This document shows, one piece after another, positions 2,206 through 61,730 of a stretch of DNA of 64,000 bases. The first letter of the stretch is position 1. Every line of letters begins with the position of its first letter. This DNA comes from Telmatactis stephensoni. Its lineage: Eukaryota > Cnidaria > Anthozoa > Actiniaria > Isophelliidae. The notes under the pieces were generated by a model. That model did no database searches, had not been told where the DNA came from, and saw only the letters and a list, made by a program, of their open reading frames with translations. The position numbers were made by a program, and so were the translations under genes. The stretch lies in NCBI GenBank assembly GCA_029948255.1, contig JALIZF010001682.1:248001-312000 (forward strand), written 5' to 3'.

Positions 2206-5200
2206 ATGAATTCAGAAAAAAGAAAATTTTGTGTCCATTGTAACCAATACGTAAGTTCCAGAACACATAGGCTTCACATGTCGTTATTTTACGATACCAG
2301 GAAGAAGAAATGGAAAAGCAACGATCACCAAGAACTCGTCTCATCTGATTCATCAGATGATGAACATTCAAGCTTTGGTGCTTTGCTTGATTTTGATGGT
2401 CACGATGTAACATACAGCAACGTTGATTCCCAGATCACACAGGAGGATACAGCTTTAGAGAACGCTGTTAACCAAGGTACTTAACTTCTCATTTTGTTTT
2501 ATAACTCTTATATTTATAGCGCGTGATGTGCATTTTAAAAGTGGTTTTCAGGACTTTTTTAAAAATTTAAGGTGTCTCTCGGCATTTACTAAATTTTGTG
2601 ATCAAATCTTAAAATTCCAATATTAGGCTTGAATGTATTCGGTAGGTTTTTAATTTTCATTTTATGAAATTCATGAATTATCCTAGACCAATTCAAACCG
2701 CATTTGCAGTAGGGATTAGACTTAGATGAAAATTTTCACCTGATGCTAACAAAATTACTTTACTGTTTAGCACTGTTAATGAACAATAGATTTTGTTTTG
2801 AATTTGGTTAACTCACATGGCCATTTGGAGAGCTCTAAATGGTGATGTTCAATCTTTAAAGAGAACTGTGGTGTGAAAACTGAAATGTCAAAGACATCAC
2901 CATTTAGAGCTTTCTAAATGGTCATGAATGACATGAGTTAACTGAAATTTATAACACAATCAAATTGTTTGGTGGCAGTGCTAACAGTTGGTATTAAAAG
3001 CAATTTCTTGGTAGTTGTACAGTGCAGTATATTATTGTACTCAAGAAAATAAGAAGAAAATGAAAAAAAAAATAGAAAAACACATCAAAATCTTAACATC
3101 TTTTAAGACTAAAGAAAGTTTTGACATTTCTCCAGTTTGATTTGAAGTGTATAGAGTGATCAAAATAAGCTGCAAGCTGTACGTGTAAGACAATTAATAT
3201 AAGCCTGTCACTACTGTGGTCCGTGGTTCGAGTCCCTTGCTCTTGAAGGCATTCGGGTCATATGTATGATATGTATATGATCATAATTGAGTTTATTCAT
3301 TTGTTTACCATGCCAAGAGGGTTTTTCTCTGGGTTCTTCAGTTTTGCCTCCCTCATTAAAAATCAACATGCGAGTTGACCAATGTTTGCAAAATAATTTA
3401 ATGTAGAGGTAGTGTGTGTGAGAGAAAACAGGCCCACATCAGCTTTTAGCTGCAAAACTCAGCCTGTATTTATAAACAAATGCATTTTATTTGTTATTTA
3501 TTTATTTATTTACATGTACATATTGTGCATAAAACACAATTTTCCAGAGAATTCACAGAGGCAAATAATCATCTAGAGGGCTTGGAAAAAGTTTATCAAC
3601 CAAACACAGAATTTTGATACTTAAACAAAGCTTGAAAGACCTTTAAAAATTTACATACAACTGACCATCAATTGGTATAGAGAATGTTTGACACCAGTGT
3701 TTAATTTCTGAGCAATCCAAACAATCTTTAAATACTTCTTACATTAAAGTTGTCCTCAAATCAAGCACATGTTTAAAAGCTCTAGTAAAAGCAGATTTGT
3801 ATGAGTGTGGAACAAACCGTGCCCTGCTGTGACTGTGTCTAATATAAAAAATTCCTCCCCTAACCGCAACTTGACTGTACAGTGATGTTTTCACAGTCAT
3901 ACGAAAACTACTCTAAGAAGCGGAGGCTCAAATACAGATTTCAGATCCTGACAGTATATTGTATTCACTGTTGACGAATATTGTTTTTTTATGAATATTT
4001 ACCCCTACACTTCACATCGTGGCAAATATTCTTTTGCTAGTCACCTCCAGTTCAGAAAATAGTTGTTAACTGATGCAAATTAAAGGTAGTGGCCTTTTCT
4101 GAAATATTTGATAATTTTTGATTAAAAAAACTATGTGAATATAATTACTGAGTAAATTACCTTTATTATTAAGTTGGGAACCTACATGTAAATCTTGAGA
4201 AAGCATTTCCAGCTCTTGAGAATTAATTGATCAAGATTATTAATCAACTAAAAAAATGACAATGAGAAGAGAATTCTCTACAAGGTTTTCTATTTAAATT
4301 TATTTCATTCATTTTCTTTTTTAAATTTTTTAGCCAGTCTCATTCCAATAATTTCAGGGTGCTATTGAGCAATTGATAGCCTGTAGACTATTAATTTGTC
4401 AGCTTAATTGTTATTGACCACAATCTATTGTTGTAGGTGCAGTTGTTAAAGACTTAGAGGAAGAGGATGTTAGACTAACTGGTGCAGATGTTGCTGATAA
4501 TGATGAGTGGCTTTACATGGAAAAGGAACCAAACGAGGTACAATTTGAGCAATGGGAACTTGATGAAAAGGAACTTAATTTAGACTTTGATGAAAATCAA
4601 GATAGATGCCCATCTTCATCTATGTATCATGAAATACAAGAGGAAAAGTTTGGATTCATTATTAAGTGGATATTGGTCTTCCTGTGTGTATGGTCATCAT
4701 ACTGTTGCATTTCAGACAATGCCTTGGACATTTTAATCCACTTCATTCATGCTCTTTTCCAGTCAGTTGCTACAGTTTTACCAGCACTGGCAGGATTTGT
4801 AGTTGCATTTCCAAAATCTCTTAATTTGTTAAAACATCAGCTTGGTATCGATAAAGACAAATTCAAGAAATATGTTGTCTGCATAAAATGTCATAGCATA
4901 TATGACTTTAAAGACTGTTACTTTGAACAGTTTGGTAGAACTCATATTAGGGCTTGTCCCTATGTGGCACATGACAATCACCGTCAGCAGTTTCGTCGCA
5001 CAGCTTGTGGTGAACCTCTCCTTAAAGAAGTGGTACTAAAGAATGGGAAGAAGAGATTATACCCTTTAAAAGTTTACTGTTACAACAGTATCATCAGTAC
5101 ACTCAAAAATTTCACTACAAGACCAGGTTTTGTAGCCAACTGTGAACTTTGGAGGGACAGAAACATACCAAGAGGAATTTTAGCAGATGTATTTGATGGG

Positions 5201-7150
5201 AGAATTTGGAAAGAATTCATGTATGTTAGAAATGAGTCTTTCTTAGCTGCACCCAGGAACTATGCTTTCATGTTAAATGTGGACTGGTTTCAGCCCTTTA
5301 AACACTCAGTAAACAGTGTTGGAGCTATTTATTTAGTATTCATGAATTTGCCCAGGGAACAGCGATTTAAACCGGAGAATGCAATACTGGTGGGTATTAT
5401 TCCAGGACCACATGAACCAAAGCTTACCATCAATTCTTATTTAAAACCATTGGTTGCTGAATTGAATATTCTTTGGGATGAAGGCATTCAAGTTACACCT
5501 CCAGGATACCAGAGTGCACAAACTTTTCGGGGAGCTTTGTTATGTGTGGGCTGTGATGTACCTGCTGCTCGAAAAGTTTGTGGCTTTACTGGGCACACTT
5601 CATGCCATGGATGCTCGAAATGCACAAAGGAATTTGCTGGGAATGTAACAGACAGAATGGATTTCTCAGGATTTGATGTATGTCCACCAAGGACTAATGA
5701 ACAACATAGACAGCAGGCTCAAGAAATCCTAAACCAAACATCATCTACTGACAAGGCTAACAAAGAACAGGAATTTGGGACAAGGTTCACTGAACTGATG
5801 ATGCTCCCATATTTTGACTGCATTCGATTCCACATAATTGATCCTATGCACAATTTATTCACAGGGACAGCCAAACATGTCATGAAAAATGTTTGGTTAG
5901 ATGAAAGTTACAGTTTAATTGATCCTAAAAGATTGACTGACATTCAGGAAAAAATTGATAATGTAAAGGCACCATCCAGTGTTGGCCGTCTTCCAAAAAA
6001 AATTTCCCACAACTATGGTGGTTTTACAGCCGATCAGTGGAAATCGTGGACACTACTTTACTCAATTTTTGCTCTTTGGAATATATTGCCAAAGGAACAC
6101 TTAGATGTTTGGCGTGAGTTTGTAATTGCTTGCAATATCCTCTGTAGCAATGTCATAACGGAAACAAAGGCAGAGTTGGGACATCTTCATTTGATGAACT
6201 TTTGTAAAATGTTTGAACAATTGTATGGAAGGAGTAAAATAACACCAAACATGCATCTTCATATGCATATTCTTGACTGTATCTTAAATTTTGGCCCAGT
6301 ATATTCATTTTGGCTGTTTAGCTTCAAGCGTTATAATGGAATTCTAGGAGAATATTCAACAAACCAAAGATCAGTGGAAATCCAGATAATGCGCAAATTC
6401 ATGTCTGAACAATTTATCAAGTCTTTGTCATTACCCCCACAGTTTGGTGAGCATTTCGAACCAGTATTTCAAAGAATGAAACTCAAAGACTCAGGAACCC
6501 TGCATGAGTATTCATCAAATAATTCAAGTTGTTTAATACAGTTACACCTTTTGTCAAATGGTCCGGTAAGGAAAGGTCTCCATTGGATACTTAAAGACAG
6601 TTATTCCTCTTTACTCAATATTATTCGACCGATATCCAAATATTGTGTTGAATTTGACTCTGTTTCAAATCTTAAAGCAGCCTATACAAGCATTTTTTAT
6701 GGTGTGAATGAGTCCTCAATAACTGGTAACTGTGACAGAATTGCTGGTTTATCATTTGGAGGAGAAGAGTTTGGGTCAATAGAAACCAGAAAAGAAAGAT
6801 CATGTTTTATTTTAGCTAGATGGTGTGGTGACTTAAGAGGAAATATTGACCATTCTGGTGCAACTCTAAGACCAGGATTTGTTAAATTCTTTTTGAGACA
6901 GAACATTCAGATAAATGGAGAATATCATACTTGTATTCTAGCTTCAGTGAGGTGGTTCAAAAAACACCCTGCAAGATTGAACTTGGGACCTCCCCTGGAA
7001 GTATGGTGCAAAGATCTCTTTGAAGATGATGGACCAGCTGAATTTATTCCCTTCCAGAGAATTCATTCCAAGTTTGTACCTGCTTTTGATGTCGTCCAGA
7101 AAGAAAATGTTCTAGTGACCTGCCCACTGCGGCGAAAAGTGCAGTGCTAA
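2206..7150 (+). CDS. CACTA/EnSpm-type transposase (tnp2-like), two exons, intact
   Basis: Exon 1 is 2206-2476 and exon 2 is 4437-7150. The intron is GT-AG and the codon split G|GT is in phase, giving 994 aa. The N-terminus has a C-x2-C...H-x2-H finger (FCVHCNQYVSS...THRLH) followed by an acidic linker. A hydrophobic segment (IIKWILVFLCVW) follows, then Cys pairs (CIKCHSIYD). The core shows motifs I associate with Transposase family tnp2: NVDWFQPFKH, GIIPGPHEP with INSYLKPLV, CDVPAARKVCGF and IDPMHNLFTGTAKH. The Asp of DWFQ, the Asp of CDVPA and the IDPMH Asp are candidate catalytic acids. There is no frameshift or internal stop, so it is either a recent element or a retained gene. I could not locate CACTA termini, so element borders are unknown. 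The intron has picked up a SINE and a palindromic repeat. Confidence 0.85.
2807..2942. repeat. 136-bp palindromic (foldback) repeat in the transposase intron
   Basis: GTTAACTCA at the left end and TGAGTTAAC at the right end are inverted, and the inner arms pair too (GAGCTCTAAATGGTGATG against CATCACCATTTAGAGC). It is MITE-like. No target duplication could be fixed. Confidence 0.65.
3185..3390 (+). mobile_element. tRNA-derived SINE in the transposase intron
   Basis: A polymerase III B-box match (GGTTCGAGTCC) lies at 3225-3235. It is followed by a body with GGGTTTTTCTCTGGGTTC and CCTCCCTCATTAAAAATC, which resembles a SINE tail common in cnidarians. The minus-strand copy near 15.8-15.96 kb shares the B-box plus this tail. 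Borders are approximate. Confidence 0.6.
3391..4436. other. rest of the transposase intron, no gene
   Basis: AT-rich intron sequence. A short (TTTA)n tract lies near 3494-3512. On the minus strand, sequence upstream of that tract could be an old retrotransposon 3' end, but I could not read a reliable protein. The intron ends in a good polypyrimidine/TTGTAG acceptor. Confidence 0.5.
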
Positions 7151-9137: not shown

Positions 9138-9170
9138 AGCAAACATAAGCAAATCCGTTATTTCATGCAG

Positions 9171-9948
9171 TGCCTACCTGCGTCTTATTCGAGAAGAACA
9201 GGCCCAAGCCAGAGTCATCCCTAAACAATCTATTCCGCTATTTTTTGATAAGTTAGTTAAGTTATGTGCTCATCTAAAAACACTTGTTTTCTCACCAAGT
9301 TGTACTCCTTGTCAACGCTACATCATTGCTAGGGACTTAGCTTTCTTCTGCTTGGAGTTTTATTCCGGAGATCGGGCATCAAATTTGGGAAGAGTGTTAA
9401 CTAAGGAAGTGTCCCGCCTCCAAGGGAATGAGGGTTTTCTTTTCCATCATACATTTGGCAAAACCTTAAGAGGTGGTAACACTAACACGTTTGTGATTAA
9501 AAGATGCCAGGATGTCACAATATGCCCAGTAGCCAATTTAGAATTGTACGTTAAACTTTGTGATTTAATGTTGATAAATCTCCGGGATGGTTACCTATTT
9601 CGCGTGTTAAACAGCAAAGGAGAAGTTTCTGGGTTACCTTTTATGAGGTCAGCGGTAGCCAACCATCTTACACTTCATTTGAATAACACCGGAATCAACA
9701 GTGGCGAAACTATGCATAGTTTCCGTAGTGGGTGTGCTATCACGCTTACTCTTCTTGGCTGGTGTTCGCTAGAAACCTTAGAGCACTACACGCAGACTGG
9801 GAAAGTTATGAGTGCTGACCGTTTGGCATCGGCTTTAGCTAGCAGCACCTCGTCATCATCTCAGCAGGAAGTCCTGGCAGCAGCAATTGCTGCTCAAAAT
9901 TTTTCTGTAAGGAATGAGCTGGGTGATTTCCAGCCCGCTTTCCCGTAA
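9171..9948 (+). CDS. tyrosine recombinase (integrase/XerD-like) catalytic domain exon
   Basis: An open frame follows a good acceptor (TTATTTCATGCAG) at 9170 and runs to TAA at 9946-9948. It encodes about 258 aa beginning AYLRLIREEQAQARV. The true start must lie in an upstream exon that I could not identify. The tyrosine recombinase residues are present in order: Arg in SGDRASNLGRVL, a His-x-x-Arg box in MHSFRSGCAI, Trp in GWCS and a Tyr in LEHYTQTGKV. Proteins of this type are abundant in cnidarians and resemble Crypton or DIRS recombinases. No reverse transcriptase is nearby, so Crypton-like is slightly favoured, but this is inference. The reading frame is undamaged. Confidence 0.7.
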
Positions 9949-16308: not shown

Positions 16309-19300
16309 TGAGTAAATTTTGATGGTGCAGAGATCATTATTAATAACAATGTAAACAGTCTGAATAATCATTCCACCTTCAATATTTCAAATATCATGCA
16401 AACACGTGGATTTAAGATGGGGTTGCTAAATATCAATAGTTTAACAAGTCACTTAGACGAATTGCAAATTCTTATGTCAGATGAACCTTTCGATATTCTG
16501 GCCATAAATGAAACAAAGCTAGATAATAATGCAGCTGATTCTCAAATTCAATTACCTGGCTATGTTTGTCTACGAAATGACAGAAATAGTCACGGTGGTG
16601 GCGTTTGCATTTATGCCAAAAACCATTTAAACATTTCTAGAAAACATGACATAGAAGTAGATGAATTAGAAATGGTATCTCTTGAAGTAAGACAACCAAA
16701 TTCTAGCCCTTTTCTAGTATCCACTTGGTATCGGCCTCCCAAATCCTCTAATGAATGTTTTGATCAATTTGAGTTATTTCTTTTGAAAGCGGAATCTGCC
16801 TACAAAGAATTTTATGTCCTGGGGGACCTTAATTGCAACCTCCTCTCAAATCCAATTGAGTCGCATACATCGCGCCTCGTTGATTTATTAGATGCTTACC
16901 AATTATCTCAAATTATTGATGAGCCGACTAGAATAACCCATAAATCATCGACATTGATTGATCTCTTTATAGCTAATGATAAGAATCCTATTATAGCCTC
17001 TGGCTCATACCCATTATCTATAAGTGATCATAATCTTATATTTGCAATAAGAAAGAAAGGAATCCCTCGAGGGAAACCTAAAATAATTACAGTGAGAAAC
17101 TTTAAACATTTTAGAGGGACTGAGTTTATCCACGATCTCCAAACTGCTAAATGGCCAATTATCCAAAATACAATGGATGTTAACGAAGTGTGGCATTCAT
17201 GGAAGGATAGTTTCATTAAAATTGTAAATAAACATGCTCCCGAGAGAAAGATGAGGGTTCGCAATAAACCCTCTCCATGGATAACCTCTGACCTCAAAAG
17301 CGAAATGCAAGCTAGAGATTTCCTCAAAAAACAAGCAATGAAATATAATAACACAGATGACTGGGTTAAATATAGACAAAAAAGAAATAGTGTCAATACA
17401 CAAATTCTAAAAACAAAGAGAGCCTTTTACAGAGAAAGAATAAGTAAGTACTCAGGGGATTCCAAAATGACCTGGAAAACAATAAATGACCTATGTGGCA
17501 AGAAATCCAACAATACAATCATCACCGAAATGAAATCCAGTACAAGCTCGGAGACTTGTGTAGACTCGAAAAACATTGCCAACACTTTGAACACTCATTT
17601 TACCAGTATTGCGGAAACGTTGGCCTCTAAAATAGATTCAGAAAAATGTACATCCGTGCACAGCGACTTTCTCACGAAAGTCAAATCAGTATTTTCCCTT
17701 CGCAACGTGAGCGTAAATGAAGTCAAAAATACACTGGAAAACCTTAAAACCGATAAGGCAACAGGTCACGATGGAATCTCCAACTACCTTTTGAAACTCG
17801 CAGCTCCTTATATTTGTGACACGCTTTGTAACCTGTTTAATCTTTCTATTCAAACCAATAGCTATCCAAATGAATGGAAAGTTGCAAAAGTTACTCCAAT
17901 TTTCAAATCAGGCGAGCAAAGTGATCCAAATAATTATAGGCCTATATCTGTTACCCCGACAATCTCTCGCCTATTTGAAAAACTAATCTATAATCAAGTA
18001 GCGACGTATATTACCGAAAATAACTTACTTTATTCACACCAATCTGGATTCAGGCCTTTACATTCAACTCTAACTGCTCTTCTAGATATGACAAATCAGT
18101 GGTCATTTAACATTGACAGGAAAATGGTCAATGGCGTTATTTTCCTGGATCTAAAAAAAGCCTTCGACACGGTTGACCATGATATTCTGCTGTCGAAGTT
18201 AGACCTTTACGGATTTGATTCTGGTGCCAAAGAATGGTTTAGATCGTACCTATCGGATAGAACCCAGCAATGTTCTGTTAACGGTGTTCTGTCTGACTTT
18301 CGAGTTGTCTCGTACGGTGTACCGCAAGGTACAATTTTAGGTCCAATATTGTTCCTTTTTTATATAAATGACCTCCCAAATTGCCTCGATTTTAGCAAAA
18401 CTCGACTCTACGCTGACGATACAACCCTAACCTTCTCTGACACCAGAATGCATGAGCTGAAACAACAAATCTCTAATGATCTAGAACATATAACATCTTG
18501 GCTCTGTGCCAACAAGCTGACTCTCAACGTTCTCAAATCTGAGTTCATGCTGATTGGTTCGAGGCAAAGATTGGCCACACTCGAAAGTGACATATCTTTG
18601 TCTGTAAAAGAAACACAGCTAAAACGAACATCAGAAACCAAATGTTTGGGAGTCACCATTGACGAAAACCTAACTTGGCGACCCCATATTGACAGTATCA
18701 AAAAGAAAATTTCAAAAAATCTGGGGATGCTCAAGAAAATGAAACCCATACTAAGCCAAGAGTATCTAATTAAAATCTACAAGTCAATAGTTGAACCTTA
18801 TTTCAACTACTGCTGCTTAGTATGGGACAGCATAGACCAAGTGTTAATTGAAAAATTACAAAAATTACAAAATTGAGTGGCGCGCATCATTACCGGGGCT
18901 CCATACCTCAGTGTTCGTACAAACCAAGTATTTAAAGAACTAGGGTGGTCACCACTTTCTGAATGTCGGGCACAACAAAAGGCCATTATGATGTATAAAA
19001 TCGTTAATGGCCTGACCCCTCCCTACTTGAAAGAAATGTTTTCCAGCCACCTTGGTTCTAAATGCTATAATTTACGTTGTCCAAGTGATAACTTTCAGCT
19101 CCCCAAAGTGAGGACTAATATTTACAGAAACAGTTTTGCATACACTGGGGCTACATTATGGAACTCCTTACCTGACTCACTGAAAAGAGCTACAATCACG
19201 GACAAAAATCCTTGAGACAGTTATGAAATCCATACATTTCAGCTGTTACTTGATTAGGTCGCCTCTTCCTTACAAGTTATTTGTTGAATCCCCCTCCCCC

Positions 19301-29231: not shown

Positions 29232-29735
29232 GTGCCCAAAGAAATTTCCAAGCCCACAAGTGCTACTTCCAGTGTGGTGAGTGGTAATGAAGCAGAACAA
29301 GCACCGAATGCATTCACATTGAGCAACTGTGTCAGGGTCGAGAGCACAACCTCAAGTAAGCCGCTTTCTCACTTGCTTATTGTTCCTGTATGGCTCCATC
29401 ACGAAACAAATCCAGATAACATGATACTAGTGTACGCACTTCTCGACGAACTGTCAGAAGCCTGCTTCATCAAGTAGTCTCTATTAGACGATCTCGAAGT
29501 GGTCCAGAGGTTGACTTTGAATTGAGTACAGTTCTAGCGAAGAAAGTCATCACAGTCGAAGAGTAGATGGTCTAGTGGTCCATGGCGTAAATGAAACACG
29601 AGATCATCCTCCCAAAGACTTACACAAGAAATGCGATTCCGGCTGAAGGTGATCACATACCAAGACCCGAGACTGCACACAAGTGGCCACATCTTCAAAG
29701 CATAGCCAACAGTATCATGCCCCTCAGAGATGATA
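29232..29735 (+). pseudogene. BEL/Pao polyprotein fragment, protease region, upstream of a LINE insertion
   Basis: Readable blocks include HLLIVPVWLHHETNPDN, YALLDELSEACFIK, a stop, then FELSTVLAKKVITVEE, a stop, then ILPKTYTRNAIPAEG and PRPETAHKWPHLQSIANS. This order is typical of the aspartic protease (DUF1758-type) region of BEL/Pao retrotransposons. Stops and a frame change show that it is dead. It continues after the LINE at 31316. Confidence 0.7.
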
Positions 29736-31198
29736 ATAAAACGTGCCTCCTGGATCCCATTCCTACAGGACTCTTGAAACAGTGTCTGGACGATCTTTTG
29801 ACAACCATGACATCTGTTATTAACCTCTCACTTGAAAGTGGACATGTTCCTGACAAATTAAAGTACGCATTGGTTACGCCTGTACTTAAGAAGAAATCCC
29901 TTGATCCCGACGTTCTCACCAATTACCGTCCAATTTCTAATCTTCCATTTTTGTCTAAAGTCCTAGAAAGAGCTGTCTGTACGCAACTTGTTCACTACCT
30001 AGAGTTAAACAGTTTGTATTCTGATATGCAATCTGCCTATCGCCGTAGATACAGCACAGAGACAGCTTTACTACGCGTGTACAACGACATCCTGATGGCT
30101 CTGGATGAGGGTTGTGAAGTCATTCTGGTACTTCTGGACTTTTCTTCTGCCTTTGACACTATTAATCACTCAATGCTACTATCTCGTCTTCATGACCGTT
30201 TTGGAATTACTGGCACTGCGTTAGAGTGGTTTAAATCGTATCTGTCTTCACGCTCTGTTTCAACTCGTATTCGATCCACTGTTTCTCCTGTCTCTCCGCT
30301 GGTTCATGGGGTCCCACAGGGCTCTGTGTTAGGCCCCGTCCTCTTCACACTATATGTTGCTCCTCTGGAAGACGTGATCTATGCACATGGAATCAATTGT
30401 ATCATGTATGCTGATGACTCCCAGCTCTATACTGTTTTAAAACATCCTCAGTCTGACATGATCCAGAGAATTGAACACTGCGTCAATGATATTAAGATAT
30501 GGTCCACTCAAAACAATCTGTTTCTTAACGATGGTAAAACTGAGGTTATTCACATTTCCTCAAAATTCCGTTCAGCATCCCTACTCGCTGGTATCAGCGT
30601 TGATGGCTACAGCATTGCTCCTGTCGCCGAAGTACGTAACTTGGGCGTCACCTTTGACAAGAATCTGTGTATGGATACACACGTCACCAACATCTGTAAG
30701 AGTGCTTTTCTGGCCATTAGAGATATTGGTCGAATTAGGCGTTACCTTGATCAGTCTACGACAGAACGTCTTGTACACGCCTTCTCATCTCATCTCATCG
30801 ACCGGCTGCAGAAAGTACAGAACACCGCCGCAAGGCTCGTCTCCCGATCTAAACGCTCTGACAGTGTTACACCAATTCTTAAGAAATTACACTGGCTCCC
30901 TGTTTCTGAAAGAATCGAATTCAAAATCCTCCCTTTAACGTACAAGTGCCTTCATGGACTCGCCCCAAAGTACCTTTCTGACCTTCTCAAGCCGTATAAG
31001 CCCAGCCGTTTACTGCGTTCCTCTTCAAAGCTTCTTCTCGAAGAACCAGGTTCAAGAACTTCTACCTTTGGCAAAAGATCCTTTTCACTGGCTGCACCTT
31101 CCCTTTGGAACAATCTACCGGACACTGTGAAACATGCTATCTCTCTGGCTTCCTTTAAATCTCAACTGAAAACATTCCTGTTTATCAGGAACGTATAA
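29736..31198 (+). pseudogene. reverse transcriptase part of a LINE ORF2
   Basis: The frame is open from the BEL/Pao part (from about 29591) straight into the LINE, so one long chimeric frame results. It contains TNYRPISNLPFLSKVLER, LLDFSSAFDTINH, VPQGSVLGPVLFTLY and CIMYADDSQLY (the YADD active site), then the C-terminal LHWLPVSERIEFK and SLWNNLPDTVK blocks. Between VHAFSSH and LIDRLQKVQN about 20 residues usual in the family seem to be missing without loss of frame. The endonuclease is absent, so the copy cannot move by itself. Confidence 0.85.
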
Positions 31199-50029: not shown

Positions 50030-50800
50030 TAGTCGTGACTAGAACGAATAGAAAACAGTCCTTTCCATTGGATCGAATGGTTCCATTCGATCCATTCGAC
50101 ATGGTCAAGCATGGCTAATAATTACGAGCCTCCAGGTAATGGGACCAGTGGAAGGTAAATGCCACAGGAATCCCAATTACTTCATATCCACGATTAGAAC
50201 GACTAGAAAAATGTATTTTCCAATGGAATATCACTTTTTCCATTCGATCCAATCGATTGAATGTAGTGTTTATTTGGCAGGGTCATCAACCAGTCGTCAA
50301 GTAATTACTTATACATATTCCACATGAATCCCAATCGTTGTTATCCCCAATTAGAACGACTAGAAAAATGTATTTTCCAATGGAATATCACTTTTTCCAT
50401 TCGATCCAATTGATCGAATGGAGTGTTTATTTGGCAGGGTCATCAACCAGTCGGCAAGTAATTACTTATACATATTCCACAGGAATCCCAATCGTTGTTA
50501 TCCCCGATTAGAACGACTAGAAAAATGTATTTTCCAATGGAATATCACTTTTTCCATTCAATCCAATCGATCCAATTTTGGACACTCCAATGGATCGAAT
50601 GGATCGAATGGTTCCAATCATCACTGACCAACTCCCCAAAAAATTTTTCATCATTTTACATGGTCTTCAAACAGTCTTATATCATTTAGCAGGGTCTTCA
50701 AACAGATGGCAAGTAATTACTTAGTTCCACAGGAATCCCAAATCGTTGATTTCCCCGATTAGAACGACTAGAAAATTATATTTTCCAATGAAACTCCATT
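50030..50800. repeat. tandem repeat with ~160-bp units, interrupted
   Basis: The unit containing GATTAGAACGACTAGAAAAA, TGTATTTTCCAATGGAATAT, CCATTCGATCCAAT and CAGGGTCATCAACCAGTCG recurs with starts near 50168, 50327 and 50486, and a partial copy begins near 50728. The short self-complementary phrase CCATTCGATCCA / TGGATCGAATGG is also scattered throughout. Short frames across it are chance. Confidence 0.82.
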
Positions 50801-51516: not shown

Positions 51517-51522
51517 TCTTTT

Positions 51523-51929
51523 TATGGCGCGTTTTCCCTGACAAAATTCATGTTCATAAATCGAGCATACGTTTGTCTATTCGACCGTCTGATCAACTTA
51601 ATCGAGCTGCTGGTCAGTTACAAAACAAGCATCGCTTGTCCAAATCGAGCGACAGAGAAGTTGCCTCTTATCTCCACTTTGATAGTGACCCTTATTCGAG
51701 CGGATGTCTGACAAATCGAGCAGAAGAATGCTTTGCTACCCATCATGCATTGCTATCCCGGCCTACTTCCGCTGCCATTTGTGCCTGCGGGCTCACACTC
51801 TCCCTTTGCACGTGGAACAGGGACAACTCTTCTTCGAAGGTGAGTGCGAAGCAATATTTTATAGTACTTTTTTGCTCTATTTCTTGCATTTTTGCAAGGT
51901 TTTTTCCGTTTTAGGGTGGGGAGAATTGT
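51523..51929 (+). repeat. left terminal inverted repeat, 407 bp
   Basis: Matches 61318-61724 in inverted orientation. It holds five (A/T)TCGAGC motifs (near 51560, 51601, 51644, 51695, 51715), which could be transposase-binding sites. It also holds an inward-facing leader ending in a strong splice donor (CGAAG|GTGAGTG, exon end 51839). ACTTCCG and CTGCCATTT upstream of the donor resemble ETS and YY1 promoter sites (inference). Confidence 0.93.
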
Positions 51930-52195
51930 ACATTTTCAAATACGTTCAATACAGAACATAAACCAAAGAATCGGGACTTTAATATCGGCGGTTGGGATAG
52001 ACACAAGCCTAAAATTTTACAGGTTTCTTTTCAGATTAAATAGCAATCAATGTTTAAGCTTACTTCAAAAACAAGCTTTGAACATTTTTACGTCTTTAAA
52101 AATACTTATAATTTTGCAGCTAAAGCTTAAGACTGCTTATAGTCATCACTAAAATTCTTTGTTTTATATATTAGATAATGGACCATCAATAACAT

Positions 52196-55047
52196 ATGCA
52201 TATCCTGAGAGGAATGAGAAATACTTTATTAGACATCTTGGGGAGACTGCAAAATATGGACTCTGAAGGACTTGACTCGATTATCTTCAGACTAGAACAA
52301 CTTTCTTCTCATATCTTAAGACTGTGTGATGTTGACCTTGTAGATGACACCTTGCATAATTTGATTAGTGACACTATTTTTAAGTTACGCCAAGTAGAAT
52401 ATATTCATGATGATGCGCCATTTGAAGTTGGAGCTGTGCAAAGTGGTGGACGAGGCCGCCCAAGCTATGACATAACCTACAGCCAACTTAATTACCTGTT
52501 AAATTATGGGTTTTCAGTACCTGACATTGCTCAAGCTCTTGGTGTATCTGAAAGAACAATTTTCAGACGTATGGCACAATACAATATATCAGTACAGCAA
52601 TCCTTCTCTATACTAACAGATGATGAGCTTGATGACAAGATTAGAGAAGTAATGCAAGAGTTTCCAGGTGCTGGATATAGACGCGTTATTTCACAGCTGA
52701 TTGCTTCTGGAGTAAGAGTGGCACAAACCCGCGTTCGGCAATCATTACAAAGGATTGATCCTCAAGGTGTAGCTATGAGATGGCTTTGCTTAACACCAAG
52801 AAGAAAGTATAATGTATCGGGCCCTCTTGCATTGTGGCATATAGATGGGAATCATAAGCTAATCAGGTAATACAGATGGTACTTCTAGATAATAAGTTGT
52901 ATATATTTACAAATATTGGTCTTTTCTAAGACTCAAGGTGAATATAGTAATACAGTCATCTGGGTGTAATGTAAACCTGTATCATGACTAAGCATCGTAA
53001 TTGTTGCATAATTTATTTTAATTCATTTTAAGGTGGCTGGATATCCGTCTTTCACTTCACGAATTAAGCAACTTACTCTTGGCCAACCAAAATGGTTTTC
53101 CCACCAGTTATTGGACTTGAATCAAAGTTTAGATTTTTGTCTGTTTCACTTCTGTTTGTGATGCCTTAGTGATAGTAAACAAAGATTGCTGAAACAACTT
53201 TTCTTAAATATCTCTTGAACTGGAGCAGCTCTAGACAAGAGACTAAGTGGGCAATAAACTACACACCAAGGCAAGGAAATTAAGGCACAATTCAAAAATT
53301 TTTACCAAGTCATTTTTTAATAAATTACAAACAATTCAAAAAATGAAATTGATTAGACCATTAAGTGATAAGCTTACCCTAGTTAAATCACAATGATTTT
53401 CCTGTCAGTAGATGAACTTAGGTCAAGGTTTTGTTTTATTGTTAGTTTCAGTGAAATTGGTGTTACCATGGCAACAATATAAAAATAAACCTGAAATCAG
53501 TTTTTCTGAAATATGTCTTGATTTCAAAGAATTCCAGGCACCCAAATACTATGTAACAATGTACATACCAAGGCAAAGGAGAGAAAATAGAATTAAAACT
53601 CTTTGATTGAAGTGATTTGGAATAAAGGACTGGTAATAATTATTAGCAAATTAGCATTGGTATTTTTCTTTTTTTTTTATTTAGCATTTATTTCTTTGTT
53701 TCAGTATGTAGTTTATTGCCCATATAGTCCCTTGTCTAGAGTTCGAAAGATATTTTAGAAAATTTGATTTCAGCCATCTTTGTTTACTGTCGCTATGGCA
53801 ACACAAATTCAAGTTAAATAGACAAAAATTTAAACTTTTATTTAAGTCCAAATGCTAGTGTAAAAACCATTTTGGTTGGTCAAAAGTAGTTAATTCATGG
53901 GATGAAAAACAGAGGCATGGTCAATAAAAACTATATCAAACCACATTTAGTTATATTTTTCTTTGATGTTCCAGATGGAGACTAGTCATACATGGCGGTA
54001 TTGATGGCTTTACCAGGATTCCAGTATTCCTTAGATGCAGCACCAATAATAGAGCTGATACTGTACTGAATGCCTTCTTAGAAGCAACTGCAGAGTACGG
54101 CCTACCTTCAAGAGTCCGTTCAGACAAAGGGCTTGAAAATACTGCTGTGTCACGTTATATGCTACAACACCCAATGAGGGGGCCAGGAAGGGGCAGTATG
54201 ATAACAGGAAGAAGTGTACATAATCAGAGGATTGAGAGGTTATGGCGAGACCTTTTTGAAGGAGTAACTTATATTTATTACCATTTATTTTATCACTTAG
54301 AGGAAAATGGTTCTTTAGATCCAACTAACCAACTGCACCTATTTTGCTTGCACTATGTGTATGTCCCAAGAATAAATAGACACATAGACAAATGGAAAAG
54401 TGGTTTTATACATCACAGGATCCGAACAGCTGGTAATAGAAGCCCTATGCAACTGTACATCCTTGGCCTTCTTAACTTGAGAAACTCTCAACATTTGGCT
54501 ATCCAGGATGTTTATTCAGCCACTTCAGTGAGTATATTAGAGCAAATGCTATATAGTGGTTTTCATAAGCCCGTGAAACACACTTTAGTGCATCACTCAC
54601 TAATACACCCTAATTCCACAGTGTTCTTTTGTTATTATTTGACTATTACCCCACTGTAACTGATACATTTTGTTTCACCAGTTAAGGAAAACCACTCAAT
54701 GTATGTCCTGTTGTGATGGCATAACCTTTGTGGATTATCAATATCAATATCATTGTCAATATCATTTTACATTTTAGTACTTGGTATTAATCAGTAGCAA
54801 ATAATCTTTTTTCCTGTTTTAGGACCCGAATGACTATCAAGAATATGGGATTGATTGGGATGGGCCTCTTCCAGAAGAAGCTGATTGTGAAGACATGGTA
54901 GAAGTTCCAGAAACAATTTGTCCATTGAATCAAGAGCAGTATCAAGAACTTGTTCATGCTATTGACCCCTTAGCACAGAGTGATTGTTATGGTATTGATA
55001 TTTATATGGAAACTATAGCATTCACAGTTAATAAGGTATCTTCCTAA
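52196..55047 (+). CDS. retroviral/IS3-like DDE integrase, 3 coding exons, 482 aa
   Basis: Exons 52175-52866 (coding from 52196), 53975-54527 and 54823-55047 join in phase with GT-AG introns. A non-coding leader in the left TIR probably precedes them. The N-terminal region is helical. Residues 85-91 (GRGRPSY) look like an AT-hook-type patch. Residues about 100-130 form a helix-turn-helix (GFSVPDIAQALGVSERTIFR). The integrase core has Asp217 in WHIDGNHKL, Asp274 in VRSDKGLEN and Glu311 in HNQRIERLWRD, a D-D-36-E layout. Further family blocks are VIHGGIDGFTR and YVPRINRHID. The last exon is acidic and ends with VPETICPLN and YGIDIY blocks. It should cut and join transposon ends in the nucleus, acting on the TIRs. 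The first ATG at 52196 follows an earlier ATG with a stop after three codons; Met-7 is an alternative start. Confidence 0.9.
52867..53974. repeat. integrase intron with a large imperfect inverted repeat
   Basis: From about 53075 to 53265 and from about 53705 to 53890 the sequence is inverted: GACCAACCAAAATGG-like, GGACTTGA, TAAACAAAGAT, CTAGACAAG and GGGCAATAAACTAC occur in the left arm and in reverse in the right arm. A third, diverged partial copy lies in the middle (about 53396-53580). This is an old foldback element nested in the transposon. Confidence 0.7.
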
Positions 55048-56822
55048 GTTATAACAGTATAGGAGGACACAGTGTGACTATTTGCTTAATTTGCAATCAA
55101 AATGTCAAGGTACCAACTTAAAACATGAGAAGGAGTAATCACTCTTAGTAAAATCTAAAAACTTTAGTATAATAGTGCCAAAAACACAAAGCCAGGCATG
55201 ACCAAAGTGTGTTGCATGTTTAAAATTTGTTTCCCATTTATGTGAATCTTAAGCTTTCTATTAGCTTGTTCAGCTGCAAAATTTACAGTGAATGTTTGGG
55301 AGGTCCAGGTACCTTGAATGTAGTTGACCCATAAAAAGAGTGGTGGCACACATACAACCAACAAACATTTTTATTGCATACATTGATAATTCATTAGAGT
55401 GAATGATCAGTACACTTAACCAATGAAAAATTACTATTAATAATAATTATCTAAATGGTACAAAATCCTTTGTTTGTCATTACATTTATTTAGTGTGTAG
55501 TTACTAAAAGGAGGAATGAGCTACAATGAGCTACTATGAGTTGTAATTACTAAAATCCAGACCCACTTCAATCCAAACAACCTTACAAAACTAGCCGAAC
55601 CCACCATATTTTACTCTTACCTCTGAATGCCACATTTTCTGAGACATGCTCTCTCTCATCTGCCATAAGCAAAATTATTTCTCATAGTAAATAAAAATAC
55701 AAGACTGCTTAAAATGATAGCATTTCACAGAGAAATAAGCTCAGATATCCAAATGTTCACGATTTGTTTCATACCGGGTTCCCTGTGGCTAAAAATATAA
55801 ACAACCAGGCATTCCACTGTGCATTCCACTGCCTGGTTGAAATAAATGGTAGAAGAAGAAAAAGAGAATGTAAAAGAATATATAAATAAATATACGAAAT
55901 GACTATGATACCAGCATTCTCTTTTTCACCTTGTGTACAGGCGGCAGGGGAATGCCTGGTTGTTTATATTTTTAGCCACAGGGAACCCGGTATGAAACAA
56001 ATCGTGAACATTTGGATATCTGAGCTTATTTCTCTGTGAAATGCTATCATTTTAAGCAGTCTTGTATTTTTATTTACTATGAGAAATAATTTATGCTTAT
56101 GGCTGATGCAAGAGAGCACATCTCAAAGAAAATGCGGCATTCGGAGGTAAGAGTGAAATATGGCGGATTCAGCTAGTTTTTGTAAGGTTGTTTGGATTGA
56201 AGTGGGTCTGCATTGTAGCTCATTCCTCCATACTACAGTATTTAGTGCTACATAAGTGTTGCTACAGCAATATTCAATTATAAGTACCATACCAGTACTT
56301 TTTACAGCAGCATGTTAGTTGATTAACAATTGTAAAATCACAAGATGCAAATCATATTCATTTTCTGGTACCCATTTTCTAACCATCACCAACAATAACA
56401 ATACTCAAGTATGAACTAACTTTGTTTGGCTAACACAACACTGTAAACTCAAACTTCTGTAAACTTCTGTTTTTGTTTACTATATTTCCCATCATTGCAG
56501 GATTGTAAATTAAAATGAAGCCAACAAAAAGTTTGAATCTCAGATGTTTTTTTAAATTACTTTCAGATATCAAAATCTCATTTTAACTCTAAGCTTCAAC
56601 TAGAAAAATTGACTAATTAGAAATACTTCCAAAAATAACTAAAAACTTTGCAAATTCAAAAATAAAAATTAAAACTTCACTAAAGTATAGTATTGATACA
56701 AAGCTTAGAAGCTTGTAATAACTTCCATATGCACATTACCAAGAATGTCTTTAACATGAACAAAACGTACTAATATACTTTAAGAAAATATAGGTTGCAT
56801 ATTCATATTATTGCAACAACAT
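55048..56822. mobile_element. spacer between convergent genes, holding a palindromic MITE at 55510-56229
   Basis: The left arm (GGAGGAATGAGCTACAATG, CAGACCCACTTCAATCC, then AAATATAAACAACCAGGCAT) is repeated almost perfectly in reverse up to 56229. The loop is short, near 55810-55930. A 29-bp segment is present only in the left arm. The outer flank sequence is AT-rich. No gene lies in this region. Confidence 0.85.
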
Positions 56823-59800
56823 TTATGCACACCCAAATCCTCTGCTGTTCTCACATGCTTCTTGCACTTTTGCATGGAAATCATTGAAGTTATCATAAGT
56901 GGTCGGTACACGTAGCACTAGGCCACATGTTTCTGCAAATAGTAAGCTGCTATATTCATTGAACTCAACTTCAATCTTCTTTTCAAGTCCCAGAGGTGGA
57001 ATTCTTGATAGGCCAGTCATAAAGTGCAAGAACTTTTCAAGCACACTTGGACCTGCATCTTTAAATCAAAAGAAAAAAATATACAAAAACCCTAATAATT
57101 TAACTGTAAATTATTTACAGTTTTCTTTTGTAAATATCACGTCTGTGATGTACAATGGTAGTCCAATTTGAATACATCATAATATATAGTGTATACCAAA
57201 TTGAAAAAATAAACATTGCAGTATGTAAAACCATACATCATATAAAAAAATATTCCAGCTGTAATATTGAATGAAAGTGCTTGCAAGTTAAGTCATAATT
57301 TTGTGCTTTTTGAAGCATGCATAAGTCTGATTTCTTGGAAATATATAAAAAAATGTACATTGTATTCTACATGTACAACTAATGTTACCATTTCCTAAAT
57401 TGAAATCTTCTTATCAAAAAGAACAACTGTATGTAAATGATGCTTCAAAATGAAATCATACTTATTTTTTATCTTTTTTAATCTTACCTTGCTCAAGCTT
57501 TTTGATACTGTCTACAAGGTAGCTATATGTCTTCTCTGCCTTTTCATCACCAATAGTTCTTGCAGAAAAAAGGTCAGTTATATGCTGACTTGTCAGTTGG
57601 TTTGACTTGTCAGACACAAAGTACTGTTCCATCAGCTCTGGATGAGTTTTGATGAGGTTCAGCACACCCAAGGTGTCGAGACCCTTTATGAGTTGGTCCA
57701 ATGGTTCTTTTCTTTTCTTTATTGCAAAGTGGACTACAAGTGTTTGTATAGCCAATTCTTTGTTTTCAGTGTTCAGATCCCTTAACCAGCCAGCATTGAC
57801 AAGGTTGTCGAGAAGTACACCATCTCTGCTGAGGACATCCAGCTCGTCTTGTGATGAAGCAGCAATAACCTGTAATTTGAATGTTGCATTTTTATTGGTT
57901 AATACTTTTCCTATCCTAAGGTTTTTCTCATAGTTTATCACTGTTGACACAAATGGTGTAACAATACACTCAAAATCCACTCAAACTATTGGGGACTTCT
58001 CAAAAAAAAATTTTTTTTGTAAGCAAAGAAAGTCAATCTAACTTTAATCTGAAATGTAATATTTATTTCAAGAGGAAATTATGTTTATGGGACATTCCAC
58101 TGTACCTTCTCAGCAAGTTCTTTTATTTCTAGGTCACACAAATCATCCATGCAACAATAACTTGAGGCACTTTCAAGAGATGTGCTTGCAATATAATGGT
58201 ACACACAAGGACTAAGGCAAGGAATGCCTATGTCCATGTGAATAATTATGTATGCTATCATTTTGCCAGCAAGTTGGAATAACCTTGATTGTATGGCTTC
58301 CATGGAGTATATAGGGAGTTTCCTGTCAATGTCTCCCTCAAACAGGTTGGCCTCAGCAGAGAAAATCTTCTCTCGTAACAGTGTTCCATATTCATTTCTT
58401 AACCCCCCAGCATCAATTCCTCTTTCGCCTTCAAAGGTTACAAAAGGGGGAGATGTGGTCTTGAACTTTGGGCTTTTGAAGGTTGCAATACTTTCCCTCC
58501 ACAAATCTTCCCTTAAAACTGATATGCGCTCCATACCACTTAAGTCCAAACTTTTCTTATGTTTTGACATCAAATCTTCCAAACTGAGCTGGGAACTTTG
58601 TTCTTCTTTTATTTCAAACACACTCTCCATTAAATCAGCATCTGATGATGAATCTGTGTCATTACCTGGTTGAAAATTATTTTTTTGATTGAATGTACAA
58701 TTACAATGTTACATTTTAATCTGATTTGATTGAGCCATTGATCAGTATTTTGTCATGTACTGTAATGGCTATTTATATTAAAGAATAAAAAAATGTATAA
58801 ACAACTTTTAAACACAGAATGTAGAAAGCATGGCACTGAAACTGTAATGTGTCTTAAAAAATAAATTAATTTTAAAAAATTAACAAAAAGTACAATGTTG
58901 AGCAAATAAAGAACTTTATTGATACCTTTATCAACCTGAAGCAGCTCTTCAGCAGCAAGGTTGATATCCCCTAATGCACTTTCCAAAGCTTTTCTTACAC
59001 TATCCTGGTGTGTGTCAGGAAACATACTCTGCAGCTTTGTGATGTCTAAATGAGAGCATAAAGTTTGATTCCATGATAAGCACTCAAGTTTGCAGATGCA
59101 TAAAAATTCTTCATGTGCTAAAATATAGTTCAATGTATAATACCTTCTTGCAGTACTTTCTTGACAATATCATTTGGACTGTAAAAAGAGTTATTAAAAT
59201 GTTAATAAAGGTAGACTAATTTCATTCACTTAAGTTTTAAATATGCTAATGAATGGCAAAATGTCAGCCAAACCAATAGGAACAGGATCAACACTAATTT
59301 TGAAAGCAAGGTTTACTTAACATAGGGAAACAAACAATGTGCAATGTTGTGATAACACCTATACAAATGTAGCTAGGGTACAATTTCAATGTATATATTA
59401 AAAGGTCATTGTTAACAATTTTGTGGTGATGTACAGTGAAGAACACTTTTATATTACTCAATTAAATACACCTTAGCAGACGCTAATTTTGTTGGATTCT
59501 TTTGTGTCTATTATTGTAACATTACAGCTTGAATATTAGATTTTAGCTTCATGTGTTTAGTCTGCCTTCACAATGATAGAATGAACTGGGATGGAATACA
59601 TGATTTACACAGTGAGCCATGAATCATGAAGAAAATATTAAGCCTTTGTGCACCTGGAGTTAGTAACTGTTACTGATGACAAAGAACCACTTCCACCACC
59701 TCCACAAACATCCTGATGTTGCCTCATCATATTCATTGGAACATTTAATTTACAATTCAGGCATGGAACTTGTGGGCTCGAGTGGTTCTAAAGTAAGAAC

Positions 59801-61052
59801 ATCCAAATTAAATAAATAATAAATCATTAAGAGAATGTTAGACATCTTAGCAAAGGGCCATAATTGAAGGGTTCCAAGTGAAAACAGCCTAAGTGACGTT
59901 TTGGTGGAGGTCCACACTTTTTTAGCATAGGGAAGTTTTAGTTGATATCATTTTAGACAATTGAACAAAATCATCAAAAAGTCACTCACATCATTTTTAT
60001 AGGTAGCCCTTCAATAAGTATAATTACATTCAAGAGAAAAGTCAGTCAAATACATAAGTAAATCAAGTCCCCACCCATCTACTTTCTTACCCCTACACCC
60101 ATTTTTTTAAAGTATTTACATCTGAAAGAATAATAGCATCAAGACTGGCAACGATGAGTTTGACATGGGACAACAAAAGGTGGAGGTAAAGAGGTGCCAT
60201 TACCCATTGGCATTTTTCATGTAACTTAGTCACTACCTAGGTCAAGGGTAGCCCCAGTGTATGGCTACTAGGTGTCTAATAAATTATTATTACTCACTTG
60301 TGACTGACAGACTGCAACTGTATTCATAATAAAAAAATTATATTGTTATTATTACTCACTTGTGACTGACTGACTGCAGCTGCATTCAAAACAATATCTT
60401 TCTGGAGAGGTCTTAAGTAGCCTTTGGCAGAACCCAAAGTGGTCTTTAAATATTCAACTGTGTAACCTCCTGGAGGAATTTCAAGAACCATTAACTTTCT
60501 GTTTCCCTTGTCTCCAGTACGGAGAATTTCATAACCACCAGCATCTTTAAGGCCTGTAAATGCATTTAAAATTTGGTTGTGCACATGATCACTATTGCCA
60601 TCTTTGTTGAAACAGATGCTTTTTTCTTGCATTCCACATAAAGCCATAGATGCTTTCTCTGATGCTGTTGGTACATTGGTAGAATTTGTTTTCATTAAAC
60701 AGAAAAAATTCTTTGTCCAAGTGTTTCTGATTGGAAAAGACATTCTTTTTCCCGTCGAGGAGATAACAGTGCGTCGCTTAGGAGGTGGAAAAGATGTGCT
60801 ACCACGGCTACTTATTGGTATCCTGAATCCAAACAGACTTCTGTGTTCAGATGCTGCTGAAGAAGACTGAACATTGGTGGCTGCTTGTGGAGTTTGTGAT
60901 GTACTTGGTTGACTTGGTTGAGAAATATTCCCTGAATTTGGGCTTGAATTATTCCCGGAATTACTTCTAGATTGTGACTCCAGTTGATTTACAGCTTGCA
61001 TTAAGTTGTTTGCACAAGAGCGCAATAACTCTTTTGTCTCCTTGTCAGTCAT
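56823..61052 (-). CDS. HECT E3 ubiquitin ligase with zinc-finger-like motif and CUE-like domain, 7 coding exons, 719 aa
   Basis: Coding exons on the minus strand: 61052-60360, 59787-59654, 59178-59144, 59045-58926, 58665-58106, 57869-57488 and 57058-56823. All phases fit and no stop intervenes. ATG directly follows an acceptor (TTTTTTATAG), so the right-TIR leader probably splices to it. Residues 28-70 are Ser/Asn/Gln-rich. Residues 150-225 form a domain seen in G2E3-like proteins (GGYEILRTGDKGNRKLM, PPGGYTVEYLK, GYLRPLQKDI). Residues 240-259 have a C-x2-C-x11-H-x3-C pattern. Residues 288-327 are CUE-like (LQSMFPDTHQDSVRKAL, INLAAEELLQVD), a ubiquitin-binding fold. The HECT domain spans about 380-719, with TFEGERGIDAGGLRNEYGTLL in the N-lobe and Cys686 in AETCGLVLRVPTTYD, the expected thioester cysteine about 33 residues from the end. 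It should accept ubiquitin from an E2 and pass it to substrates; targets are unknown. Confidence 0.9.
60286..60388 (-). repeat. tandem duplication of a splice donor region in the HECT gene
   Basis: The end of the first coding exon with its donor (plus-strand TTACTCACTTGTGACTGAC) is present twice, near 60291 and 60351, about 60 bp apart. The copy nearest the exon is the one that fits the phase. The other is a possible decoy donor. Confidence 0.65.
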
Positions 61053-61317
61053 CTATAAAAAAATATAAACAAACACACTCACATTTTAGGTTTATTTTAT
61101 CTGTTTATTTATCAAACTTTCACTGAGTAAACGATATAGCAAAAAGAAATACAAGAAATAAACAAATAAAGAACTCAATAACGTAATATAAACATTAAAA
61201 AAGAGAAAACTTAGCGAGGGACAATCACAACAGAGCATGAAAGCCCGAACTTCAATAATACGAAATATATGATGCACAAGATAGACATAAAAATATAGTT
61301 ACAAAATCATTTCGACA

Positions 61318-61724
61318 ACAATTCTCCCCACCCTAAAACGGAAAAAACCTTGCAAAAATGCAAGAAATAGAGCAAAAAAGTACTATAAAATATTGCTTCG
61401 CACTCACCTTCGAAGAAGAGTTGTCCCTGTTCCACGTGCAAAGGGAGAGTGTGAGCCCGCAGGCACAAATGGCAGCGGAAGTAGGCCGGGATAGCAATGC
61501 ATGATGGGTAGCAAAGCATTCTTCTGCTCGATTTGTCAGACATCCGCTCGAATAAGGGTCACTATCAAAGTGGAGATAAGAGGCAACTTCTCTGTCGCTC
61601 GATTTGGACAAGCGATGCTCGTTTTGTAACTGACCAGCAGCTCGATTAAGTTGATCAGACGGTCGAATAGACAAACGTATGCTCGATTTATGAACATGAA
61701 TTTTGTCAGGGAAAACGTGCCATA
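61318..61724 (-). repeat. right terminal inverted repeat, 407 bp
   Basis: Mirror image of the left repeat with two visible substitutions (GGCACG instead of GGCGCG near the tip, and AACGAGC instead of AACAAGC). The same TCGAGC motifs and the same splice donor (leader end at 61408) now face the HECT gene. Confidence 0.93.
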
Positions 61725-61730
61725 TCTTTT

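Follow-up and report, generated by a model that had tools for sequence, protein, structure and literature searches.

A recent IS3EU insertion in the sea anemone Telmatactis stephensoni, with a HECT gene as recurrent partner of the transposase gene

Background

IS3EU elements are described as having TA..TA ends and, usually, 6-bp target duplications, and as being listed in Repbase since 2013 (PMC10045372). The IS3EU families of rust fungi end in TAYGG..CCRTA and hold a TET/JBP gene that is flanked by the transposase gene on one side and an oppositely oriented alpha-kinase gene on the other; TET/JBP genes have passed between fungal transposon lineages (PMC12730594). Helitron and Helentron elements encode VTD deubiquitinases (PMC9741609), a precedent for transposons that touch the ubiquitin system. 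This report concerns a 10,202-bp transposon at positions 51523-61724 of a 64,000-nucleotide stretch of T. stephensoni DNA (assembly GCA_029948255.1, contig JALIZF010001682.1, positions 248,001 to 312,000; hereafter the window), which carries a transposase gene and a HECT gene.

With the described IS3EU elements the element shares the TA..TA (TAYGG..CCRTA) ends, the 6-bp duplications and an IS3/IS481-like DDE transposase; it adds a HECT E3 gene lying tail-to-tail with the transposase gene. Because its termini, duplications and transposase type fit, the element can be assigned to the IS3EU superfamily, which gives a name to the IS3-like/retroviral integrase core correctly recognized in the original prediction as one of eukaryotic DNA transposons. 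The TET-bearing fungal elements likewise have an accessory enzyme opposite to the transposase and an accessory gene, TET/JBP, that passed between lineages, but their accessory genes encode an alpha-kinase and a TET/JBP dioxygenase (PMC12730594). The VTD proteins are also ubiquitin-pathway enzymes of a DNA transposon; however, they remove ubiquitin and lie within the open reading frame of a rolling-circle Helitron, whereas the HECT protein would add ubiquitin (PMC9741609). A predicted E3 ligase thus joins the TET/JBP dioxygenase and alpha-kinase of fungal IS3EU elements and the Helitron deubiquitinases among the enzymes carried by DNA transposons. A literature search that covered openly accessible papers, and the top rows where many papers matched, showed no link between IS3EU and HECT in print and no paper with both words; the novelty of the pairing is provisional.

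Results and discussion

The element and its two genes

The transposon is bounded by inverted repeats of 407 bp that are identical at 405 of 407 positions (2 mismatches, 0 gaps) and is flanked by a TCTTTT duplication. Two multi-exon genes converge between the repeats, the transposase gene on the plus strand and the HECT gene on the minus strand, and the start of each sits just inside one terminal repeat. These repeats with their two mismatches, the duplication and two convergent, open, multi-exon genes had all been predicted, and all were borne out. The splice sites of both models were placed by hand using frame, GT-AG and homology; all eight introns are GT-AG (8/8).

The transposase model has three exons and an open frame of 482 amino acids, the start possibly lying 6 residues further in. 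The protein has the conserved domain rva_4 (PF24764; E-value: 2.5e-81) and a match to rve (E-value: 2.6e-4) that is below the curated cut-off of that family. The residues of the DDE triad, D217, D274 and E311, are invariant in 14/14 aligned transposases. No integrase zinc-binding domain was present before the core in the general Pfam listing, where helix-turn-helix families match, and no search was aimed at an HHCC motif. Relatives in the protein database number 3185, of which the best 120 were listed; a viral-contig search with the transposase alignment returned none.

The HECT model has seven exons and an open frame of 719 amino acids. The protein has the conserved domains PF00632 (HECT; E-value: 8.7e-18, residues 423-718) and CUE (E-value: 2.2e-5), and in its N-terminal region Pfam gave nothing above chance. 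Its AETC motif aligns with the TC of E6AP and AREL1, the cysteine of which is presumably catalytic. G2E3, E6AP, AREL1 and NEDD4 of animals share with it the HECT domain and the cysteine motif near the C terminus, but differ from it in that it combines a CUE domain with a distinct N-terminal region and has no PHD finger detectable by Pfam at E<=0.01. G2E3 carries PHD fingers before its HECT domain. The label "G2E3-like" that had been given to the gene rests on the name of one match, the coral protein P0121 (G2/M phase-specific E3 ligase). The database relatives of the HECT protein come from corals, one fish and unnamed sources and are known without genomic context; the viral-contig search with the HECT protein found no relatives. 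The relatives of the two proteins would point to a cnidarian host.

Empty site and copies of the element

A query consisting of the two 200-bp flanks with one TCTTTT matches contig C258 at bases 1-400 across 400 bases (99%). The query has 16 matches in total; apart from that to C258 they are the two flanks in the window itself and incomplete matches at 71-81%. On the left the comparison covered 200 bp; on the right another 1.5 kb of flank matches C258 in order (98-99%), C258 having about 1.7 kb more between the two matches. Parts of this right-flank stretch also match C133 (84% and 97%). Most simply, C258 is the sister haplotype without the element; alternatively, it could be a recent segmental duplicate. 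The empty site means that the whole unit was inserted with a 6-bp duplication, and it excludes a chimera at the window locus. The two genes were inserted as a single unit at a position that is still empty on another contig.

The genome searched is one 483.5-Mb assembly (1782 contigs) that contains the window. In it the 407-bp repeat has 31 matches, some of them partial or diverged. Six copies of this family (family A) are long: the window copy (10,202 bp) and those on C530 (10,649 bp), C379 (10,055 bp), C446 (10,203 bp), C426 (10,742 bp) and C428 (25,962 bp). All six hold both genes; this, the 6-bp duplications and the empty site were the checks that the original prediction had proposed, and all came out in its favour. 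Pairwise differences among the six are 0.01-0.33%. All six (6/6) have an open HECT frame and four (4/6) an open transposase frame; the exceptions are C446, with two 1-base deletions in transposase exon 1, and C428, with one in-frame stop. The insertion is real and recent, because its site is empty on another contig and the long copies have diverged so little; the youth that had been read from the identity of the two repeats is upheld, with these two lines of evidence replacing that argument. Being young and having an empty counterpart within one assembly, the insertion is a candidate for direct assay.

The 6-bp duplication is exact in 4/6 long copies, and the other two have swapped flanks. One flank is common to C446 and C530, and one to C379 and C426; the other flanks of C446 and C379, read outward, start with CATATC and GATATG and match as the sides of one further insertion, which gives five insertion sites. 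C379 and C446 are thus contigs joined across copies by assembly or by ectopic recombination, so that the earlier worry about assembly error was justified for these two copies but not for that in the window, with its matching duplication and empty site. The length of the C428 copy (50842-76803) is due to an insert of 15.8 kb within a HECT intron. This insert, which has inverted repeats of about 860 bp (96%) and open reading frames of 193-280 amino acids, is probably another large DNA transposon. In the C426 copy the left inverted repeat is broken by about 690 bp of other sequence, near 360920-361610.

Five further copies are short (C514, C481, C388, C220 and C178; 2717-2877 bp). Of the repeats they retain just the outer 240 bp, and all of them (5/5) are flanked by exact 6-bp duplications; neither gene was found in them by tblastn, and the interior of the C178 copy is filled with arrays of a 10-bp unit. 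Repeats that never enclose the HECT gene had been named as evidence that would count against a two-gene element. The short copies do lack it, together with the transposase gene, yet they are internally replaced derivatives of the element. The five are about 92-99% alike, and parts of them match in inverted orientation.

Pairing of HECT and transposase genes across the genome

Searches with the HECT protein gave at least 68 matches, clustered into at least 38 loci (gaps of 20 kb), and searches with the transposase gave at least 92 matches in at least 68 loci (gaps of 6 kb). An added PF00632 search (at least 125 matches) raised the total to at least 97 HECT loci, many of which are probably ordinary cellular HECT genes. 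The locus counts are lower bounds, with 62 of 375 (HECT protein), 88 of 428 (transposase) and 129 of 186 (PF00632) candidates scored. Among the matches listed, a tail-to-tail transposase is located no more than 30 kb away at 32 of the 38 HECT loci; C171, missed in the locus listing and found by direct tblastn, is a 33rd. From the other side, and again among the matches listed, a HECT locus lies within 15 kb of 39 of the 68 transposase loci (40 within 30 kb); about 0.4 pairs within 15 kb are expected by chance. The orientation of the pairs within 15 kb is tail-to-tail in 39/39.

The HECT gene is therefore a recurrent partner of the transposase, more than a one-off cargo. The original prediction was right to place both genes in one intact element, but the term "cargo" understates a second gene that recurs at so many transposase loci. 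Its suggestion that such elements may explain the abundance of HECT genes is supported for this one genome, by the pairing of 32 of 38 HECT loci and C171. As a control, 72 matches to the alpha-kinase domain PF02816, another multi-copy gene family, were placed in the same way: none lies within 15 kb of a transposase locus (0/68), so that an alpha-kinase is rejected as the alternative second gene at these loci, and the two within 30 kb (2/68) have the orientation of the transposase. Several sets of these alpha-kinase matches have identical scores on different contigs, which suggests another mobile or amplified family in the genome.

Divergent families

Two further families have the convergent layout of family A between repeats of their own. 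In family B (C110, C166 and C330) the inverted repeats measure 473-475 bp and the transposase is about 39% identical to that of family A; in family C (C171 and C444) the inverted repeats measure about 380 bp. Families A and B have TATGG ends, and family C has one TATGG and one TATGC end. All five copies of families B and C have 6-bp duplications: GACATT and CTGCTC (C110 and C330) were exact by script, whereas for C166, C171 and C444 the script failed and CACTTG, GAAACC and GGTAAC were exact after the start had been moved by eye, by 1-2 bases, to TATG. Each family has its own motif within the inverted repeats, AATCGAGC (four copies) in A, ATATTCAATA (seven copies) in B and TCGAATCGTC (five copies) in C, as might be expected of lineage-specific binding sites for the transposase. 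In the window, AATCGAGC has one further copy in the 53.8 kb outside the element, and 7 of 1000 shuffles give four copies of any 8-mer; the four copies are proposed transposase-binding repeats.

Three other lineages were recognized: D (C282 and its near copy C525, which has a stop nearby), E (C438) and F (C255 and its near copy C157). In the fetched stretches of C438, C255, C282 and C525, both genes are not enclosed by any pair of long inverted repeats, and the C282 stretch has neither a 6-bp duplication nor clear ends. The catalytic-cysteine motif is present in all five lineages with a readable C-lobe (A, B, C, D and F); no C-lobe was found in the stretch of lineage E.

Evolutionary history of the two genes

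The tree of transposase cores (16 sequences) places A together with E, F and two proteins from the database (support 100/98), and B together with D (96/94). In the tree of HECT N-lobes (11 sequences), A falls with the coral protein P0121 (97/97), then with B (82/88), apart from E and F. Forcing A with E and F in the N-lobe tree costs 32.7 log units (p-AU 1.2e-4), and forcing A with B in the transposase tree costs 38.5 log units (p-AU 1.5e-6). C and C60 group in both genes (transposase 90/89, HECT N-terminal region 98/96), so co-inheritance occurs as well. The trees have no transposase row for C525 or C157, and E is represented by 84 HECT N-lobe residues; C59, C17 and C60 are confined to the transposase and N-terminal trees, and B and D to those of the transposase and the N-lobe. 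Stop codons of old copies were treated as X.

Between A and E/F, the HECT regions are 33-41% identical and the transposase cores 68-71%; the transposase cores of A and B are 48% identical. The N-lobes of families A, B, C, D and F are 27-55% identical. The partial conflict between the two trees suggests that IS3EU lineages have exchanged HECT modules, and the simplest reading of the trees would be an old association with some exchange, like that reported for the TET/JBP genes of fungal transposons (PMC12730594).

Proposed model and alternatives

The element is probably an autonomous cut-and-paste IS3EU transposon in which the HECT gene is a regular functional partner; its anatomy, the duplications and the empty site point to transposition by the DDE enzyme. 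The proposed model is as follows. The transposase would bind the repeated motifs in the inverted repeats, excise the element and join its ends to the target strands at a distance of 6 bp. A promoter and leader exon inside the repeats may serve both genes, which would match their expression. A GTGAGT site in both repeats is the proposed donor of a 5' non-coding exon for the two genes, and in family A acceptor-like sites precede the start codon of each gene, downstream of this site. More tentatively, the HECT protein could be an active E3 ligase that ubiquitinates a host protein limiting transposition and not the element's own transposase. Candidate targets would be a silencing, DNA-damage or cell-cycle factor; a host target is favoured since the transposases that accompany HECT modules differ so much from one another, and since the modules diverge faster than the transposases do.

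Several observations weigh against a regular functional partnership. No HECT match lies within 15 kb at 29 of the 68 transposase loci (28 for 30 kb); one of these, C157, in fact holds HECT exons, so the missing HECT genes are partly a matter of detection limit. The 39 paired loci represent fewer families, within which the copies do not count as independent. The groups used in the topology tests were chosen after the trees had been seen. In the protein database the HECT protein has only 5 relatives (14 with a profile). Finally, coding differences within family A fit the neutral expectation, with no signal of recent purifying selection at the few sites available (nonsynonymous to synonymous changes 8:2 in the HECT gene and 5:2 in the transposase gene).

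This neutral ratio is what would be seen if the element had captured a host HECT gene as a passenger of no benefit to it, and transposons often acquire host sequence. A passenger is nevertheless improbable: pairing in the same orientation recurs in divergent families, the cysteine motif has been kept across A, B, C, D and F despite the low identity of their N-lobes, and the HECT frame is open in every long copy. Somewhat more weight, though still not much, can be given to a G2E3-like role in which the HECT protein acts on the cell cycle or on DNA repair, allowing excision gaps to be closed or copies to be gained, with no part in countering silencing. Cut-and-paste elements do rely on host repair, and P0121 is named as a G2/M phase-specific enzyme; that name, however, looks automatic, and the PHD finger was not found. 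An artefact, either an assembly chimera or a nested insertion that mimics one two-gene element, is scarcely credible. Flank swaps do occur in the C379 and C446 copies, but the window copy has a matching duplication and an empty site of 400 bases for 400 (which holds unless C258 is itself mis-assembled), six copies have the same layout, and two further families likewise have it within their own repeats.

The strongest competitor of a host target, although itself unlikely, is action of the HECT protein on the transposase or transpososome of the element itself, either to adjust its amount or to free it after strand transfer. Matched expression would follow from the constant tail-to-tail pairing and from a leader-like site in the repeats of families A and B (none of three searched hexamers was found in C). 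The conflict between the N-lobe and transposase trees speaks against it, and the much lower identity of the HECT regions than of the transposase cores between A and E/F would better fit a changing external target. A wider proposal, just as tentative as that of a host target, is that in an animal-wide branch of IS3EU an exchangeable HECT gene may be the standard second gene, directed against host silencing or repair. HECT genes of the G2E3-like type are numerous in cnidarian and fish genomes. Many of those with G2/M names in cnidarians and fishes might then be transposon genes, and the ubiquitin system a front in the conflict between element and host; an annotation puzzle, the many HECT genes of this type in some animals, becomes a testable statement.

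Features of the element and its surroundings

The features of the element are listed in Table 1. The foldback element between the two genes falls inside the aligned part of the remaining five long copies as well.

Table 1. Positions of features of the transposon in the window
Feature	Position	Strand	Remark
Left target-site duplication TCTTTT	51517..51522		Single copy at empty site
Left terminal inverted repeat, 407 bp	51523..51929	+	Starts TATGG
Span of four direct AATCGAGC copies, left repeat	51559..51721	+	Starts 51559, 51600, 51643, 51714
GTGAGT splice-donor-like site	51840..51845	+	Repeat position 318
Transposase exon 1	52196..52866	+	Helix-turn-helix region, first catalytic Asp D217
Inverted repeat arms, ~190 bp, 81%	53070..53891		Within intron 1 of transposase gene; nested element probable
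Transposase exon 2	53975..54527	+	rva_4/rve integrase core, D274 and E311
Transposase exon 3	54823..55047	+	C-terminal part
Foldback element, arms ~272 bp, 93%	55550..56218		Between transposase and HECT genes
HECT exon 7	56823..57058	-	C-lobe, motif AETC with C686, stop
HECT exon 6	57488..57869	-	
HECT exon 5	58106..58665	-	Start of HECT N-lobe
HECT exon 4	58926..59045	-	Most of CUE domain
HECT exon 3	59144..59178	-	
HECT exon 2	59654..59787	-	CxxC..HxxxC, zinc-finger-like by eye, no Pfam match
HECT exon 1	60360..61052	-	N-terminal region, conserved in coral relatives
Right terminal inverted repeat, 407 bp	61318..61724	-	Terminates CCATA
Right target-site duplication TCTTTT	61725..61730		

An Rfam scan of the window at gathering thresholds gave 0 matches. 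No further copy of the element or of its genes was found elsewhere in the window, where tblastn gave one 17-residue match (E-value: 0.98). About 1 kb to the left of the element is a tandem repeat of 157 bp (50162-50576; 2.6 copies, 93%). An open frame of 910 amino acids at 4418-7150 is possibly another transposase, and a frame of 269 amino acids at 9139-9948 is tyrosine recombinase-like by eye. Long open frames at 16312-18876 and 29591-31198 resemble, also by eye, the reverse transcriptases of LINE elements.

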